DNA of 64,000 nucleotides from Caldicellulosiruptor hydrothermalis 108. GTDB lineage: Bacteria; Bacillota; Thermoanaerobacteria; Caldicellulosiruptorales; Caldicellulosiruptoraceae. The first letter of the stretch is position 1. Every line of letters starts with the position of its first letter. Positions 538 to 36,969 of this stretch are shown piece after piece. Below the pieces are notes generated by a model that ran no database searches, was not told the origin of the DNA, and saw nothing but the letters and a program-made list of their open reading frames with translations. The stretch lies in the NCBI RefSeq assembly GCF_000166355.1, contig NC_014652.1, positions 526,001-590,000 on the forward strand. Reading direction: 5' to 3'. The translations under genes were made by a program, and so were the position numbers.

Positions 538-690
538 ACTCCTTTTGAAAAGCTGAATTCCCAGGGGAAAAGGCCTGGGATACGGGGGACCCAATTTTCT
601 GGGGTGAATCAGAAGCCAAAAGCTTCTGTAGGGCTAACCCTTTCGGCCCGAACCCGTCAGCTAACCTCGGAAGCTTTGAAAGGGGAGGCA
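538..690 (+). promoter_or_regulatory. c-di-AMP riboswitch aptamer (ydaO/yuaA class)
   Basis: The segment carries the hallmark blocks of the ydaO/yuaA RNA. GGGGTGAATC is near 600 and AGGGCTAACCCTTTCGGCCCGAACCCGTCAGCTAACCTCG spans 629-669; these positions are the key conserved core. The outer helix is formed by CTCCTTTT..AAGC near 540-555 and GCTTTGAAAGGGGAG near 673-688, with G-U pairs. The class binds cyclic di-AMP and usually shuts off genes for K+ uptake, wall hydrolases and osmolytes. Extra hairpins (GGCAAAAG 688-695 with CTTTTGCC 733-740) lie between aptamer and terminator. The target is the aminomutase at 828. Confidence 0.9.
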
Positions 691-3618: not shown

Positions 3619-4398
3619 TCAAACCTCTCTTTCAAGGTCAGAAAAGTCAAAACTGCAAAATATTTGGGTGCCGTTTTCAAAGAAAAATGACTTGTACTCA
3701 TCCGGCACGTTTGTGTCGCTTATAACCTTTTTGATCTCATCAACCCTTGCTATCTGGAAAAGAGAAATCTTGTCAAACTTTGATGAGTCTGCAACAATAA
3801 TTGTCTCTTTGGCAATTGACTTAAAATACTTATATGCGTTTGCAAACTCAACATTGTTCACTGTAAATCCTCGCTCGAGTGAGACACCGTCAACCTCAAT
3901 AAATGCCTTGTCCACAAATATGTCCATATTAGGATTTACAAGCATTGGCCCTGCCAAGGTGAAGGTATTTCCAACAATATAACCACCTGTCACAATTGTC
4001 TGGATTGAAAGCTTTCCACACTCTATTGCCAAAAGAAGGTCGTTTGTCAAAACTATTATGTTTTGTTTTTCCTTTATATACTTTGGAACAAGCCTCAATA
4101 TATTTCCGCCTGCAAGGATAATTGCCTGGTTACTTTCTATCATGTAAGAGCACACCTTTGCGATTGCCTCTTTTTCAGAGTCTTCTGAGATTGTAGGTGA
4201 TAGAATCTTTGCTGCCTCTTCTTTTAAGATTGCCCCGCCGTATGTTTTTATCAAAAACCCTTCACTTTCAAGCCTGTCCAAGTCACGCCTGATTGTTACC
4301 TCTGAAACGTTCAAAAGCTCTGCAAGTGTTGCAACGTCAATGTGCTTTTTCTGAAGAAGTATCTCCTTTATCTTTTTTAGCCTCTCTGCAACAAGCAT
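3619..4398 (-). CDS. DeoR-family transcriptional regulator
   Basis: The N-terminus has the DeoR winged helix-turn-helix (VATLAELLNVSEVTIRRDLDRL). It is followed by the DeoRC sensor domain, related to ribose-5-phosphate isomerase and binding phosphorylated sugars, with an effector-site-like region TNDLLLAIEC and late VADSSKFDK. The length of about 260 residues is typical. ATG 4398 has GTGGTGA at a suitable distance; the adjacent TTG at 4401 is less likely. The gene heads a two-gene unit with the orphan ABC ATPase and is divergent from the complete sugar ABC operon, its most probable target. DeoR proteins usually repress, and sugar phosphates relieve repression. Confidence 0.88.
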   Translation of the reverse strand: MLVAERLKKIKEILLQKKHIDVATLAELLNVSEVTIRRDLDRLESEGFLIKTYGGAILKEEAAKILSPTISEDSEKEAIAKVCSYMIESNQAIILAGGNILRLVPKYIKEKQNIIVLTNDLLLAIECGKLSIQTIVTGGYIVGNTFTLAGPMLVNPNMDIFVDKAFIEVDGVSLERGFTVNNVEFANAYKYFKSIAKETIIVADSSKFDKISLFQIARVDEIKKVISDTNVPDEYKSFFFENGTQIFCSFDFSDLEREV

Positions 4399-4430
4399 CA
4401 ATATTCACCACTTTTGCAAGTTCTTATGCT

Positions 4431-4459
4431 ATTATACCACCAAAAAAGTTGTATGTGAA
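4431..4459 (-). promoter_or_regulatory. Sigma-A-type promoter for the deoR-like gene
   Basis: On the minus strand TTCACA (4454-4459) and TATAAT (4431-4436) are 17 bp apart, about 35 bp upstream of the DeoR start. The spacing is ideal. Confidence 0.6.
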
Positions 4460-4637
4460 CAAGTTTGATATATTTTCTTTTCTTCAGTGTATTACATTTT
4501 ATCAGGCCTGTCAACAAGCTGAACATTTTTGATAACATTGTTCAAGAAAATAAAATTTTTTTGATTAAAAAAGAAGGATTTTTGATTTTGGTGTAGAATA
4601 TATATAAATAGAAAAGCGAAAGATGGATACAAATAAA

Positions 4638-4654
4638 TAGTTTTACCAAAACTA
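4638..4654. promoter_or_regulatory. Inverted repeat upstream of the sugar ABC operon, possible DeoR operator
   Basis: TAGTTTT (4638-4644) and AAAACTA (4648-4654) form a perfect 7-bp inverted repeat with a 3-bp spacer, 33 bp before the ATG of the divergent operon. A possible promoter lies just upstream (TTGATT at 4582, AT-rich -10 near 4603-4610). The position fits a repressor site, and the adjacent DeoR protein is the likely ligand. This is inferred from position only. Confidence 0.4.
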
Positions 4655-4687
4655 CTATAATCTTTAACAAAGCGAGGTGAGATTTGC

Positions 4688-6215: not shown

Positions 6216-7202
6216 ATGTCAACGCTATCTTCAAATCAGGCAGCAAACAAAAGCTTTCTCAAAAAAGTGATGGGGTTTAGGGAAATTACTTTGATTTTCA
6301 TCATAATTGTAATAAGTGCTATTATATCGGTCCTAAGCCCAAACTTTTTGACAGCAGAAAACTTGATAACAACAGCTCTGGGTCTTGCAGCAGATGGAAT
6401 CCTCGCAATAGGCATGACTGTTGTGCTTGTCTCAGGTGGCGTTGATCTTTCTGTTGGTTCTGTTCTGGGGCTTTCGGCTGTTATTGCCGGCGGGCTTTAT
6501 CTTAGCTATGGTGTGAACATCTGGATAGGTTCTTTGATAGCTCTTGTTATCTGTGCTCTGATTGGGCTTTTCAATGGATACTTTATAGCGCGAATTGGAA
6601 TTCCACCTCTTATTGTTACGCTTGCTATGATGGGGATTGCAAGAGGTGCTGCATATGTTCTGACCCAGGGTTCGCCTCTTTCGCTTTACGGTAACTTGAA
6701 AGGCTTTGATTTTCTTGGCCAGGGCAAGGTTTTGGGGATTCCATTTTTCATCCTGTTTTTTATCATCCTCATAATCCTATTTGACTTTTTGATGAGAAAG
6801 TCAGCACCGTTCAGACTTGTGTACTACGTAGGAAGTAACGAAAACGCGGCAAAGCTTTCTGGTATAAATGTTCCAAAGGTAAAGATTTCTGTATATGTTT
6901 TAATGTCAGTCTTAGCAGGAATTGCTGGAATATTTACTCTCTCAAGGTTTTCAGTTGCTGCACCAACAGCAGGAAATGGTTCAGAGCTTAACGCAATCTC
7001 AGCATGTGTCATTGGCGGAGCGTCACTGGCAGGCGGTGAAGGAACAGTTCTTGGAGCAATTCTTGGTACAATCCTGGTTGGTATTATCAACAACGCGCTT
7101 GTACTTTTGAACGTCTCTGTCTACTGGCAGAACCTGGTCAGCGGTGTGATTCTGATTGCGGCTGTGACAATTGACTACCTGACACATCAGAAAAAATCAT
7201 AG
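6216..7202 (+). CDS. Sugar ABC transporter permease (RbsC-like)
   Basis: A hydrophobic protein of about 328 residues with 8-10 predicted membrane helices and the BPD_transp_2 signatures of CUT2 permeases: GMTVVLVSGGVDLSVGSVLG near the N-terminus and the late AISACVIGGASLAGGEGTVLG block. It forms the membrane channel for the ATPase at 4688 and the binding protein at 7317. ATG 6216 follows AGGAGGGGAAGG; upstream in-frame codons overlap the ATPase gene and lack a ribosome site. A strong hairpin separates it from the binding-protein gene. Confidence 0.93.
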   Translation: MSTLSSNQAANKSFLKKVMGFREITLIFIIIVISAIISVLSPNFLTAENLITTALGLAADGILAIGMTVVLVSGGVDLSVGSVLGLSAVIAGGLYLSYGVNIWIGSLIALVICALIGLFNGYFIARIGIPPLIVTLAMMGIARGAAYVLTQGSPLSLYGNLKGFDFLGQGKVLGIPFFILFFIILIILFDFLMRKSAPFRLVYYVGSNENAAKLSGINVPKVKISVYVLMSVLAGIAGIFTLSRFSVAAPTAGNGSELNAISACVIGGASLAGGEGTVLGAILGTILVGIINNALVLLNVSVYWQNLVSGVILIAAVTIDYLTHQKKS

Positions 7203-31842: not shown

Positions 31843-31870
31843 TTGATTTTTTTTCAAAAAACCATATAAT
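31843..31870 (+). promoter_or_regulatory. Sigma-A-type promoter for the fluoride-riboswitch transcript
   Basis: TTGATT (31843-31848) and TATAAT (31865-31870) are 16 bp apart. Transcription would start about 20 bp before the riboswitch. Confidence 0.65.
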
Positions 31871-31898
31871 AGAAATTGAGAATAAAAAGTTAAATATC

Positions 31899-31962
31899 AA
31901 GGCGATGGAGTTCGCCTTAAAATGCCACAGGGACTGCCCTGGTTGGCTGATAACTCCTGTCC
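31899..31962 (+). promoter_or_regulatory. Fluoride riboswitch (crcB motif)
   Basis: The crcB-motif layout is clear. P1 is AAGGCG (31899-31904) with CGCCTT (31913-31918). Its loop holds GGAGTT (31907-31912), which pairs as a pseudoknot with AACTCC (31952-31957). Between them is a stem built from TGCC..AGGG and CCCT..GGC, followed by the conserved GGCTGATAACTCCTG. The class binds F- and turns genes on. The 3' half of the pseudoknot is also the 5' arm of a terminator, the expected switching arrangement. The gene it controls is not a CrcB or CLC-F protein but a DUF6062-like one. Confidence 0.9.
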
Positions 31963-31988
31963 GTACAAGATGCGGGCAGGAGTTTTTT
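31952..31988 (+). terminator. Fluoride-controlled intrinsic terminator
   Basis: AACTCCTGTCC (31952-31962) pairs with GGGCAGGAGTT (31974-31984), 11 bp with one G-U pair, followed by six T residues. The AACTCC strand is shared with the riboswitch pseudoknot, so fluoride binding should prevent termination. Confidence 0.88.
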
Positions 31989-32038
31989 GCTTTATTAAAG
32001 AGTTTAAAGCCTTTTTGAAGGCTTTGGGGGGATGGACC

Positions 32039-32596
32039 TTGGATATTGTGTATTTTGAAATGATAGAAAACTTCAAAGAAGATAAGTGTATTGTATGCCA
32101 TCTTAAAAACAAGGCAATGGATAAGTTTTTTGATGACTTTCTGTATGAATCAGTAAACGATTACAACTTACGTGACAAAATAAGAAAAGGGGGAATCTGT
32201 CCAAAGCATGCAAGAAAGTTAGAGTCGTTAGGTGATGTGCTTGCCCATGCCATTATATATTCAGACTTGCTAAGTAATTCCAGAAATAGAGACTCTACTG
32301 AAATATTGCCATGTAAAAGGAAAACTCAAAGGCAGCAAAATATGTGCATCTTTTGTGAAAAAGAACAAGGCTTTGAAGATACCTACACAAGAGCATTTTC
32401 CCACTTTTTTGCTACCCAGCCTCAATTTAAATCTGCATTTGCTGAAAGAGGCTTTATGTGTCAAAGGCACCTAAATCAAGTTTTGGAGAAGACAGCTTCT
32501 GTATCTGTGCAAAAGGAGCTTTTGTCAGTTATGGGGGCTAAGATAGTTTACTTAATAGCCCCAGCACATAACATTTTTGATTTTATGTACGTTTAA
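32039..32596 (+). CDS. DUF6062-like cysteine-containing protein under a fluoride riboswitch
   Basis: From TTG 32039, six bases after GGGGGGA, the product is about 185 residues. The outer frame from 31922 would include the riboswitch, so it is rejected. It has two repeats of a C-x2-C ... C-x2-H pattern: CIVCHLKNK with GGICPKHARKL, then CIFCEKEQ with RGFMCQRHLNQV. These look like metal-binding or redox sites typical of DUF6062 proteins. There are no membrane helices or signal peptide. The molecular function is unknown. The riboswitch ties its expression to fluoride. A separate promoter for the next operon begins two bases after its stop. Confidence 0.7.
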   Translation: MDIVYFEMIENFKEDKCIVCHLKNKAMDKFFDDFLYESVNDYNLRDKIRKGGICPKHARKLESLGDVLAHAIIYSDLLSNSRNRDSTEILPCKRKTQRQQNMCIFCEKEQGFEDTYTRAFSHFFATQPQFKSAFAERGFMCQRHLNQVLEKTASVSVQKELLSVMGAKIVYLIAPAHNIFDFMYV

Positions 32597-32597
32597 A

Positions 32598-32625
32598 TTG
32601 ACAAAAAGGCAAAATTTGATACAAT
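32598..32625 (+). promoter_or_regulatory. Strong sigma-A promoter for the MoxR/vWA/ABC operon
   Basis: TTGACA (32598-32603, a perfect -35) and TACAAT (32620-32625) are 16 bp apart, about 65 bp before the first gene. The operon is therefore transcribed independently of the fluoride-controlled gene. Confidence 0.8.
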
Positions 32626-32688: not shown

Positions 32689-35103
32689 ATGAGAAAAAGG
32701 CTGGTTGTTGTCTTATTTATTTTTTTATTTTTACTGATAGGAAAGAGTATTACATATGCTAATAATAGCATAGAAATTACCAATATTGAGTATGGAATTG
32801 ATAACAAAGTAAATTTGTACAATTTAATTGAGCTTAAGATAACTTTACAAAACAAAAGTCAAGACTACTTCAAGGGCAAAATTTCTGTTGAATGGTGGGA
32901 GCCCAAAAATGACGCATTTGCCACTCCGGTAGCTTCAAGACCAAAGGAAAAAAAGTTCAGTTTTTCAAAGGAATTTGAGCTTGCAGCAAATTCAAAAAAG
33001 TCTATTATTCTTCCCATGTGTTTTGGCGACATGATATATTCTGCAACATATGTTAAAATTTACAATTCAAAAGGAGATGTGATTTTAAACAAGCAGATAG
33101 TCCCGCCTAAGAAAGGATATAATTTGAGCATTGGTCTTCTTTCAGACCAAAAGGATAAAGTAAAATATTTGATAAAGCCATCTCAACAAGCAACAAGCAG
33201 TATCACTGTGGTTTTATTGGATAGTTCAAATTTTCCTATAACCTCATCGTTATTAGAGAGATTTGATACCATAATAATTCATAATTATAAAACTTCAAAT
33301 CTTTCTGCTGATCAATACAGAGCGTTAAAAAATTATATTATTAGAGGTGGCAAGTTAATTATATTCTTGGGAGAAAATTATCAAAAGAATTTGTCAATTT
33401 TTAAAGATAACTTTTTAGAAGGGAAAATTATGGGTATTAAAAAGGGAGATATCAGTCTTAATATAGATGAACAACAACTCAATTATACCTCTGTCGTGGT
33501 GGATAAAGAAAATTCAGAAGATATTGTCCTGAATGATACAAGATTTGTGGATTTTGTTTTAAAAGATGGAGAAAAGATAAGTCAGTTGCATATTCAGCGA
33601 AAGATAATTGGCAATGGTGTTGTGCTGGTAACCTCATTTGACCCATTTGAATTGGACATACCGGCAGAAAAGAGAGATAAATTATTAGGGTTTCTACTAC
33701 AAAGTTGTTATTCTGAATATTCAAAGCTTTTTCAAGGGATTATTACAAATTCTACCTCTTACTCTTACTCCTTGGGTGTAAGTAACTCAATTTACAATTT
33801 AGCAGTAAACGTAAAATGGCCTCAGAATGGTTTGATAATTATTTTGATAGTTATATACATTTTTATAATTAGCTTCGGGAACTATTTGATACTAAAAAAG
33901 TTTAATAGACGTCACCTTACATGGCAATTTATATTGTTTGGAAGTATAGTTTGGACAGGAGTTATATTTGGTGTTGCTAATGTGTATAAAATTAAACAGC
34001 CAAGCATTACAGAAACAAATTTTATTGTTTACAACACCGACAGGAAAGGATATATAGTGAACAAGTATTACCAGATTTTTACTCCACTTAAGAGTAGCTT
34101 TGAAGTTGAAGCTACTGACAGTCAAAAGATAGAGCCATTGGTCAAATCTTTCAAAGCATTTGTTGTGAACTTGGATTATGCAAATGATTTTGAGTATTAT
34201 CCATGGGAAAAGATTATCTTTAAAAATGTTCCGGCATTTTCTGTAAAGTTTGTAAGGGACTTAGAAACTTATGAACTTCCCAGTCCTTTAGTTGAGATGA
34301 AATTAAATTTAAAGGATATTTTAAAACCATCTGTAGAGATAGAAAATAAATCAAACTATGAAATTAACCATTTGTTTGTATTTTTGTCTAACAACATGGC
34401 TTATGTAGAGAATCTAAAACCCTATGCTAAGGTTGTAAAGTCCTTTTCAAATATAGGCACTGATATTGCAAATGGAATTAGAAACCAGCTTTATAATTTT
34501 AACAAGAACAGACAATTAAACTATATGTACATTAATAGGTTAGTAGACCTTTGTATAACATCAATACCAGAAAATAATTATTCAACTTTTTATGCAATAG
34601 GTTATATCAAAAATTTCAATGATTTGCAGTTAAAAGTAAATTCTAAATTGGTGAAAACCAGAGGTGAAGCAATTTTCAGAGTTGACATAAAACCAACGTG
34701 GCTTGTTGATGGAAAAATGGTTATTCCTTATGGCATTATAGTTCCGGTAATTATTAAAAATACATTCCAAAATTCAACTTCCTATGGACCGGGTGTTCAA
34801 GTATCTTATTATGGAAAAGGAGAGATAGAGATAGAGTACAACGTTGCAAGTGTTTTAGAAGATGTTAAAAAGGTCTCGGTCAGAAATGATTCATTGTATG
34901 GGAGAAATAATGTAAATGAATTTATTTACAACTTCAAAAGCAAGAAATGGGATAGAGTTGATTTGAGCAAGGCTATCTTAATTTCAGAAAGTGATTTTGG
35001 CAAATATCTTTATAGAGGAAAATTACGCATTAAGGTAGTTGGATTTGATAATTCTTCAGTTGCTACCATTCCTCTTATTTCTGTAGAAGGTGGTGGAAAG
35101 TAA
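32689..35103 (+). CDS. Large secreted/membrane protein of unknown function, first gene of MoxR/vWA operon
   Basis: This 804-residue protein has a signal peptide (LVVVLFIFLFLLIGKSITYA) and a long extracellular beta-rich region. A Gly/Leu-rich segment near residues 205-260 (KNYIIRGGKLIIFLGENY) resembles the glutamine-amidotransferase-like folds found in related operons. Two membrane helices follow near residues 380-435 (NGLIIILIVIYIFIISFGNY and WQFILFGSIVWTGVIFGV), then a second extracellular domain. No catalytic motif is seen. ATG 32689 follows AAAGGAG. Its stop is 2 bp before the ABC ATPase gene, and seven further genes follow with little or no spacing. Confidence 0.8.
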   Translation: MRKRLVVVLFIFLFLLIGKSITYANNSIEITNIEYGIDNKVNLYNLIELKITLQNKSQDYFKGKISVEWWEPKNDAFATPVASRPKEKKFSFSKEFELAANSKKSIILPMCFGDMIYSATYVKIYNSKGDVILNKQIVPPKKGYNLSIGLLSDQKDKVKYLIKPSQQATSSITVVLLDSSNFPITSSLLERFDTIIIHNYKTSNLSADQYRALKNYIIRGGKLIIFLGENYQKNLSIFKDNFLEGKIMGIKKGDISLNIDEQQLNYTSVVVDKENSEDIVLNDTRFVDFVLKDGEKISQLHIQRKIIGNGVVLVTSFDPFELDIPAEKRDKLLGFLLQSCYSEYSKLFQGIITNSTSYSYSLGVSNSIYNLAVNVKWPQNGLIIILIVIYIFIISFGNYLILKKFNRRHLTWQFILFGSIVWTGVIFGVANVYKIKQPSITETNFIVYNTDRKGYIVNKYYQIFTPLKSSFEVEATDSQKIEPLVKSFKAFVVNLDYANDFEYYPWEKIIFKNVPAFSVKFVRDLETYELPSPLVEMKLNLKDILKPSVEIENKSNYEINHLFVFLSNNMAYVENLKPYAKVVKSFSNIGTDIANGIRNQLYNFNKNRQLNYMYINRLVDLCITSIPENNYSTFYAIGYIKNFNDLQLKVNSKLVKTRGEAIFRVDIKPTWLVDGKMVIPYGIIVPVIIKNTFQNSTSYGPGVQVSYYGKGEIEIEYNVASVLEDVKKVSVRNDSLYGRNNVNEFIYNFKSKKWDRVDLSKAILISESDFGKYLYRGKLRIKVVGFDNSSVATIPLISVEGGGK

Positions 35104-35105
35104 AA

Positions 35106-36038
35106 ATGCCGCTTTTGGAGATAGAAGGTTTGACAAAGTTTTATGGGAAGAAAAAGGCTGTTGACAATCTTTCTTTTTCGGTTGAAGAAGGTCAAATATT
35201 TGGATTTGTTGGTCCAAATGGTGCTGGAAAAACAACAACAATGAAGATTATGTGCGGGCTTTTAAGAGCAGACGGTGGATGTGTTAAAATTAATGGTATG
35301 GACATCTCCAAAAACTTAAGCAAAGTAAAGTCGCTAATTGGTTATATGCCTGACTTTTTTGGTGTGTATGACAATCTTAAAGTGAATGAATATTTAGAAT
35401 TTTTTGCCCACGCATACCGAATAAAAGGTACAAAAGCTCAAAAGATGATAGATGACCTTCTTGAACTTGTCCGCTTGACAGATAAAAAATATGACTTTGT
35501 TGACTCCCTTTCGCGTGGTATGAAACAGAGACTGTGCTTAGCACGATGTCTTATTCACAATCCTTTGCTTCTTGTGCTTGATGAACCGGCTTCTGGAATG
35601 GACCCACAGTCAAGAATTGAGATGAAAGAGATATTAAAAAACCTAAAAGATATGGGAAAGACGATTATAATAAGTTCACATATCTTACCAGAGCTTTCTG
35701 AACTTTGTACACATGTGGGGATAATAAATCAAGGCAGAATGGTTGCTCAGGGGGATATTGCACAAATTACAATGTTAGCTCATGGTACAAAGAGGATAAA
35801 GGTAAGGTTTGTAGAAGACTTTAAAGAGGCGCTTACAGTGTTTAAGGAATTTCCTGCTGTATCAAATGTTCAGGTTATAGAAAATGGGTACATTTTGAGT
35901 TTTGACGGTGATGATAATGATATGTTCTTGCTTATAAAAGGCTTGATTGACAGGGGAGCAAGAGTATGTGAAGTAGGACTTGTTGAAGGCAGTTTGGAAG
36001 AGGCGTTTATGAAAGCAATTCAAGCAGTTGAAAACTGA
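35106..36038 (+). CDS. ABC transporter ATP-binding protein (ABC-2 type exporter)
   Basis: The 310-residue protein has Walker A GPNGAGKTTT, signature SRGMKQRLCLAR and Walker B LLVLDEPASGMD, followed by a switch His (ISSHILPELSEL). It is of the CcmA/GldA-like class that pairs with ABC-2 permeases. The start of the permease gene lies at or just after its end. It powers export or envelope remodelling of an unknown substrate. Confidence 0.92.
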   Translation: MPLLEIEGLTKFYGKKKAVDNLSFSVEEGQIFGFVGPNGAGKTTTMKIMCGLLRADGGCVKINGMDISKNLSKVKSLIGYMPDFFGVYDNLKVNEYLEFFAHAYRIKGTKAQKMIDDLLELVRLTDKKYDFVDSLSRGMKQRLCLARCLIHNPLLLVLDEPASGMDPQSRIEMKEILKNLKDMGKTIIISSHILPELSELCTHVGIINQGRMVAQGDIAQITMLAHGTKRIKVRFVEDFKEALTVFKEFPAVSNVQVIENGYILSFDGDDNDMFLLIKGLIDRGARVCEVGLVEGSLEEAFMKAIQAVEN

Positions 36039-36069
36039 GGATTTTATTAGGCAAAGGAGTGGTGAGGCT

Positions 36070-36969
36070 TTGCAAAGAGTAAATAAATTTTTAAACTCAA
36101 TATTTGCAAATCCGATTGTTACAAAGGAGATAAAACAAAGAACAAGAAGCATGAAATTTGCTTTGACGCTGGCAGGATGGCTTTTATTGATAACAGTTTT
36201 CAGTTTTATTTTTTTGAAAAACTTTGCCAAGGAGTTCGTTGAGGTTGAAATTTATAAAACTAATGCAATAGGCTTTCAGACATTTTTAATTATCCTTTTA
36301 ACAGCTTTTTTTGGTATGTTAATGGTTATTTTAACCTCACAGGCGATAGCTAAGGAAAGAGAAAATCAGACTCTTGACATTCTTCTTTCAACTACCATGA
36401 GCAACTTTGAAATAGTAATAGGTAAGATGATTGCAGCGGCAGGTGAGGTTATAATTCTATTTTTTGCTACCTTTCCGGTATATGCTTTACTTTATCTTTA
36501 TGGGCTTATGAAATTTCAAGATATATTGGGCATGTTTGTATATATTTTTGTGTTGATTTTATTTTATGGGTCCTTAGGGCTTTTAATGTCCACAGTACTC
36601 AAAAAAAGTATTGGTGCAACAGTAGTGGTAATTGTCGTTGTAGTTGTTATAGTATTAATAAGTTACATTTCAGTAGTAGCTTTGTCAGATGTAATAAGTA
36701 CTTTACCATCTCAGCCGCCAAGGAAGGCTGATTTGATAAAACTTTTGCTTACCTCTTTGAGCCCTCTTTTTGCGTTGGTAGAATATATATTTACCCAAAT
36801 TGGAAGAAGCGACTTGTTTTTTACGTATAGTTATAAAGTAAAAGGTTACCAAGTTCACTTTTTGCTTTGTTTGATAGGAACATTTATTAACATAGCTCTA
36901 AGTAGTTACTTTTTAAATCCTCTAAGAAGAGGGTTTTTCAGAAAAGATACAAGGGCTAAAGGTGTCTGA
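36070..36969 (+). CDS. ABC-2 type permease
   Basis: A protein of about 300 residues with six predicted membrane helices and an N-terminal NPIVTKEIKQRTRSMK element, typical of ABC-2 permeases paired with GldA-like ATPases. The conserved SQAIAKERENQTLDILLST motif sits after the second helix. TTG 36070 follows AAAGGAGTGGTGAGG; the longer frame from TTG 36028 overlaps the ATPase gene and lacks a ribosome site. It is co-transcribed with the ATPase at 35106. Confidence 0.88.
   Translation: MQRVNKFLNSIFANPIVTKEIKQRTRSMKFALTLAGWLLLITVFSFIFLKNFAKEFVEVEIYKTNAIGFQTFLIILLTAFFGMLMVILTSQAIAKERENQTLDILLSTTMSNFEIVIGKMIAAAGEVIILFFATFPVYALLYLYGLMKFQDILGMFVYIFVLILFYGSLGLLMSTVLKKSIGATVVVIVVVVVIVLISYISVVALSDVISTLPSQPPRKADLIKLLLTSLSPLFALVEYIFTQIGRSDLFFTYSYKVKGYQVHFLLCLIGTFINIALSSYFLNPLRRGFFRKDTRAKGV

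Follow-up and report, generated by a model that had tools for sequence, protein, structure and literature searches.

A fluoride riboswitch paired with a DUF6062 gene in Caldicellulosiruptor hydrothermalis points to a probable and recurrent component of the bacterial fluoride response

The genes that lie behind fluoride riboswitches are switched on under fluoride poisoning, and the best understood of these targets are exporters and known enzymes. What, then, is such a riboswitch doing ahead of a gene that encodes a domain of unknown function, and is the pairing an accident of one genome or an arrangement that recurs among bacteria? The question is raised by a locus in the window, by which we mean the whole stretch of 64,000 nucleotides of Caldicellulosiruptor hydrothermalis 108 that was analysed. 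Our answer, which we consider very probable, is that a gene of the DUF6062 family is under the transcriptional control of a fluoride ON switch and that this family recurs as a hitherto unrecognised part of the fluoride response. The RNA elements on which this answer builds are the following.

31843-31870, + strand: promoter-like TTGATT-16-TATAAT for the riboswitch transcript (10/12 in a consensus scan; weak, shuffled sequences yielding about as many)
31892-31966, + strand: fluoride riboswitch aptamer, RF01734 (Rfam, 49.3 bits against a gathering cut-off of 34, E 1.2e-10)
31901-31916, + strand: P1 hairpin, its loop holding the 5' pseudoknot strand GGAGTT at 31907-31912 (Rfam alignment)
31952-31957, + strand: 3' pseudoknot strand AACTCC, common to aptamer and terminator (pseudoknot covariation in 18 DUF6062-linked aptamers)
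31952-31988, + strand: intrinsic terminator, the expression platform (14-pair stem at 31952-31984, then a T run)

A sequence-only reading of this DNA had described a crcB motif with a pseudoknot and an overlapping terminator, and this description is borne out by the RF01734 match, by the GGAGTT/AACTCC pairing and by the stem at 31952-31984; the Rfam search that it proposed returned a match above the cut-off, although the start that it had given, 31899, lies 7 bases inside the match. The six bases AACTCC are at once the 3' strand of the pseudoknot and the 5' arm of the terminator stem, and the folding energy of the riboswitch region is -46.5 kcal/mol, versus -26.4 +/- 3.1 kcal/mol for shuffled sequences (z -6.5). 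In its aptamer, pseudoknot, overlapping terminator and expected ON behaviour, the window element is like other systems of the crcB motif (Weinberg 2010, PMC2864571; reviewed in PMC11139923); it differs from them in controlling DUF6062, which is absent among the targets named in the literature examined. By analogy with the fluoride riboswitches that have been studied, AACTCC would enter the terminator stem when there is little fluoride, and transcription would stop before the DUF6062 gene; fluoride and Mg2+ together would stabilise the pseudoknot, no terminator would form, and the gene would be transcribed. Far upstream in the window, at 541-690 (+ strand), there is also a c-di-AMP riboswitch (RF00379, 102 bits).

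What does the switch control? The gene and its immediate surroundings can be laid out as follows.

32026-32031, + strand: GGGGGG, a ribosome-binding-like site (read in the sequence; conserved in the genus)
32039-32596, + strand: DUF6062 gene, 185 aa, C-terminally truncated (PF19538; alignment with relatives)
32087-32209, + strand: first CxxC...CxxH module, residues 17-57 (invariant in the alignment)
32345-32470, + strand: second CxxC...CxxH module, residues 103-144 (invariant in the alignment)
32543-32593, + strand: 17 family-unrelated residues that replace ~43 residues including the conserved C-terminal module (alignment of genus orthologues)
32598-32625, + strand: promoter-like TTGACA-16-TACAAT of the next gene (11/12 in a consensus scan)

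The gene likely starts, as judged from its sequence, at the TTG at 32039; an open reading frame start at 31922 was rejected because the frame runs through the aptamer. The product matches the PF19538/DUF6062 profile with 62.4 bits (cut-off 27; profile positions 10-183 of 243), and neither the NCBIfam profiles nor the PF02537 (Fluc/CrcB) profile matched it, in agreement with the earlier statement that the target is DUF6062-like and not a fluoride exporter. The repeated CxxC/CxxH sites noticed at the same time are real as well: the four motifs C17-x2-C20, C54-x2-H57, C103-x2-C106 and C141-x2-H144 are invariant over 30 aligned sequences, and the window copy keeps all eight ligand residues. From the motifs and their invariance, DUF6062 is probably a metal-binding protein, with zinc as the likely metal. 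The window copy thus shares with PF19538 its family and the two CxxC/CxxH modules, without the C-terminal K-DYR...DAW module; its similarity to relatives breaks off near residue 168, where the 17 unrelated residues take over, whereas the segment is present in the genus orthologues and in most relatives. The sequence-only reading had not remarked on this truncation. The missing piece was not found elsewhere within the window, and its loss may have left this copy partly or wholly inactive. Over the shared part, pairwise dN/dS values of the window copy are 0.06-0.22, near those of intact copies. AlphaFold models are confident and all-helical both for the window protein (pLDDT 89.0, pTM 0.81) and for a full-length member from Omnitrophota (pLDDT 93.4, pTM 0.86). 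Sequence and fold searches of the PDB found no relative, with no Foldseek match at E < 1 and a best VIA-align Z of 4.6, although a new fold does not follow from this, and the longer DUF6062 members L169 and L206 showed no fusion with a named domain.

How constant is the pair among close relatives? The source genome has two fluoride riboswitches, of which the second precedes two tandem crcB/fluc genes in the usual exporter arrangement; it also has a second DUF6062 gene, which is full-length, lies elsewhere and is without a riboswitch within 5 kb. Fluoride riboswitches are found in all 13 genomes of the order, and in 12 of the 13 a short DUF6062 gene closely follows one of them. Over 14 copies, the genes that flank the pair fall into 7 groups on the upstream side and 6 on the downstream side; the flanks change and the pair stays, and it is therefore the pair, not the neighbourhood, that is conserved. 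Intact genus copies have a median dN/dS of 0.11, i.e. they are under purifying selection, and the P1 hairpin, including the GGAGTT loop, is identical across all of them. The DUF6062 gene that follows the riboswitch in genome G007 is broken, and at two loci (L030 and L031; G006 and a second copy in G002) the riboswitch is followed by an internally deleted DUF6062 remnant beside a gltX-like gene. The aptamer loops of these two remnant loci read GAAATT and GGAATT where the loop is otherwise GGAGTT, and no intact copy is altered; with the changes confined to the remnants, the RNA has therefore decayed together with the gene. Being truncated in the window, broken in G007 and deleted in G006, DUF6062 is dispensable in some lineages.

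For the survey beyond the genus, we used a phylum sample of 398 genomes, 54 of which have DUF6062 and 155 a fluoride riboswitch, and searched the flanks of the DUF6062 genes, about 5 kb to either side, using a covariance model derived from 36 riboswitches. A link was called direct if the riboswitch preceded the gene on the same strand by at most 125 bases, and 45 loci outside the genus had enough upstream sequence for this call. Direct links were found at 15 of the 45 (14 by our own covariance model and L139 by Rfam itself), where chance would give at most about 0.05 on an assumed rough rate of one to three riboswitches per 2500 genes; at 9 more, a riboswitch lies within about 5 kb but not directly 5'. 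The 15 loci span ten family codes of the search tool, a grouping of our own. Direct linkage exceeds Rfam's own cut-off at L114, L115, L117, L121, L125, L133, L139, L153 and L157, and the links below this cut-off retain GATGG...C as the hallmark, most of them together with an overlapping terminator, L134 being the weakest. In the 18 DUF6062-linked aptamers, 96% of the pseudoknot cells are paired and 5 of its 6 pairs show compensatory changes, whereas in slid controls only about half of the cells are paired. On a tree of 77 proteins, many of whose inner branches are weak, the label 'directly linked' is scattered and changes 12 times, 5 of these changes being forced by strong branches; the linkage is therefore not a single inherited event. 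A scan of GTDB contigs gave 33 DUF6062 loci. In Omnitrophota, RF01734 accompanies DUF6062 at 5 of 5 loci, directly upstream in L175, L179, L186 and L193 and with one intervening gene in L174, and in L205, from Planctomycetota, three fluoride riboswitches lie no more than about 2 kb from DUF6062. The association, which the sequence-only reading would have given up had it been a peculiarity of one genome, is thus not unique to C. hydrothermalis, given the 15 direct and 9 nearby loci and those of Omnitrophota. At about half of the sampled loci, the 5 kb around DUF6062 contain no riboswitch, and the family is therefore not fluoride-only; a relaxed scan of these riboswitch-less loci gave chance-level matches only.

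Could the window riboswitch nevertheless serve a different gene, or a gene that is dead? Next to DUF6062, at 32689-36969 of the window, lies an ABC-2-like operon whose first product is an 804-aa membrane-anchored protein with a weak ABC_transp_aux match, followed by an ATPase and a permease that were named by reading the open reading frames. If this ABC-transporter-like operon were the true target, the truncated DUF6062 would be a leftover in between; no terminator was found between the end of the DUF6062 gene (32596) and the next gene (32689), and with DUF6062 truncated, read-through is possible. We nonetheless hold this reading to be very improbable, as the downstream gene varies among genomes while DUF6062 is constant, as DUF6062 comes first after the switch in many unrelated families, and as a separate promoter-like site precedes the downstream gene at 32598-32625, where the sequence-only reading had also placed a promoter. 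A possible reading, in our estimate somewhat unlikely, is that the window locus is a decaying cassette with a working riboswitch and a dead gene, a fate that the lost C-terminal module and the broken or deleted copies of G007, G006 and G002 (its second copy) would fit. It has to contend with an open reading frame, two CxxC/CxxH modules and an aptamer that are all intact in the window, with dN/dS values close to those of intact copies, and with a truncated protein that is still modelled confidently. Control of DUF6062 by a fluoride ON switch is therefore the reading that we carry forward, and under it fluoride would induce the gene and, we infer, the protein would raise fluoride tolerance.

What company does DUF6062 keep? 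The open reading frames of 92 loci were clustered and the cluster representatives named with Pfam, and 40 riboswitch-linked loci were set against 44 others. In these counts, from which shared ancestry is not removed and in which L139 is placed in the near and not the direct class, neighbours at linked versus other loci number 16 versus 0 for MFS proteins, 13 versus 0 for HEAT/zinc-ribbon proteins, 13 versus 0 for dynamin-like GTPases, 6 versus 0 for MutS-V, 8 versus 1 for Na+/H+ exchangers, 6 versus 1 for Usp, 5 versus 1 for enolase and 3 versus 5 for membrane pyrophosphatase. Antiporters, pyrophosphatase and enolase are known targets of fluoride riboswitches (PMC11139923), as is mutS (PMC2864571). 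DUF6062 thus sits inside fluoride-gene clusters, and fluoride genes are expected at riboswitch loci anyway. For example, the order at L133 is riboswitch, DUF6062, crcB, and at L114 crcB lies about 2.5 kb from DUF6062. The Na+/H+ antiporter, enolase, pyrophosphatase, mutS and Usp genes that cluster with riboswitch-linked DUF6062 have known biochemical activities of their own, unlike DUF6062. The most telling neighbour for the role of DUF6062 is the dynamin-like GTPase, whose gene adjoins DUF6062 at L138, L142, L143, L151, L158, L161 and L167 and which is, from its genomic placement, a candidate second fluoride-response gene; a literature search for fluoride riboswitches together with dynamin found nothing relevant.

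Some details of these clusters deserve mention in their own right. A small HEAT-repeat protein with a zinc-ribbon-like start (L125 4269-4676, and cluster c5 with 13 loci) occurs at riboswitch-linked DUF6062 loci only. At L163, an M-box magnesium riboswitch (6598-6762, + strand) lies ~30 bases past the DUF6062 gene within a fluoride cluster, and at L175 two DUF6062 genes (475-1155 and 3985-4674) share one Omnitrophota fluoride cluster with enolase and membrane pyrophosphatase.

What might the protein do? The suggestion of an undescribed fluoride-response protein, made by the sequence-only reading, stands as far as the recurrent riboswitch-DUF6062 pair is concerned and is weakened by the truncation of the window copy and by the half of loci that are without a riboswitch. 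Our best guess, which we hold with low confidence, is that DUF6062 is a cytosolic, zinc-stabilised helical adaptor or a protective protein for some fluoride-sensitive machine; a more speculative version would have the two-zinc helical adaptor and the dynamin-like GTPase, its operon neighbour in several families, protect membranes or GTP-dependent machinery from fluoride, separately from export. The idea first put forward, that DUF6062 detoxifies metal-fluoride complexes, either by sequestering aluminium or beryllium fluoride or as an enzyme shield, draws on the invariant Cys/His sites and on the GTPases and MutS-like ATPases among the neighbours, both being enzyme classes that metal fluorides may inhibit. 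Cys3-His sets, however, are usually structural zinc sites, and aluminium and beryllium prefer oxygen ligands, so that we regard this idea as highly unlikely. A better case, if still a rather unlikely one, can be made for a general zinc-binding stress or housekeeping protein that in some lineages came under fluoride control via a disturbed metal or pH balance: half of the loci are unlinked and stand in fixed non-fluoride contexts, and the long DUF6062 of the source genome has no riboswitch. It accounts less well for the placement of DUF6062 among fluoride genes and for a linkage that is repeated in separate lineages, with a frequency comparable to the values given for the exporters, which are about 15% for Flucs and 30% for CLC-F (PMC11139923).

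DUF6062, as a probable fluoride-response component, shares its riboswitch class with the Fluc/CrcB channel (PF02537) and the CLC-F exporters and differs from them in being soluble and helical, with cysteine/histidine sites and no membrane channel; it is a concrete candidate for a fluoride defence other than export. Beyond the family of C. hydrothermalis, fluoride switches precede it in about ten further bacterial families and also in a second phylum, Omnitrophota, and the riboswitch link offers a first functional handle on this domain of unknown function. Our search, made over the main texts of openly accessible papers, found no literature that names DUF6062 and no recorded function or fluoride link, and the pairing may have been recorded before, with the gene entered as a 'hypothetical protein'. 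Among the DUF6062 genes without a riboswitch, a clade of ten (L140, L144-L147, L149, L150 and relatives) has a fixed context of a different kind, with a nitronate-monooxygenase/FabK-like gene, a FapR-like regulator and dnaB, to which several members add a membrane pyrophosphatase; all of these names except pyrophosphatase were assigned by reading the sequences.
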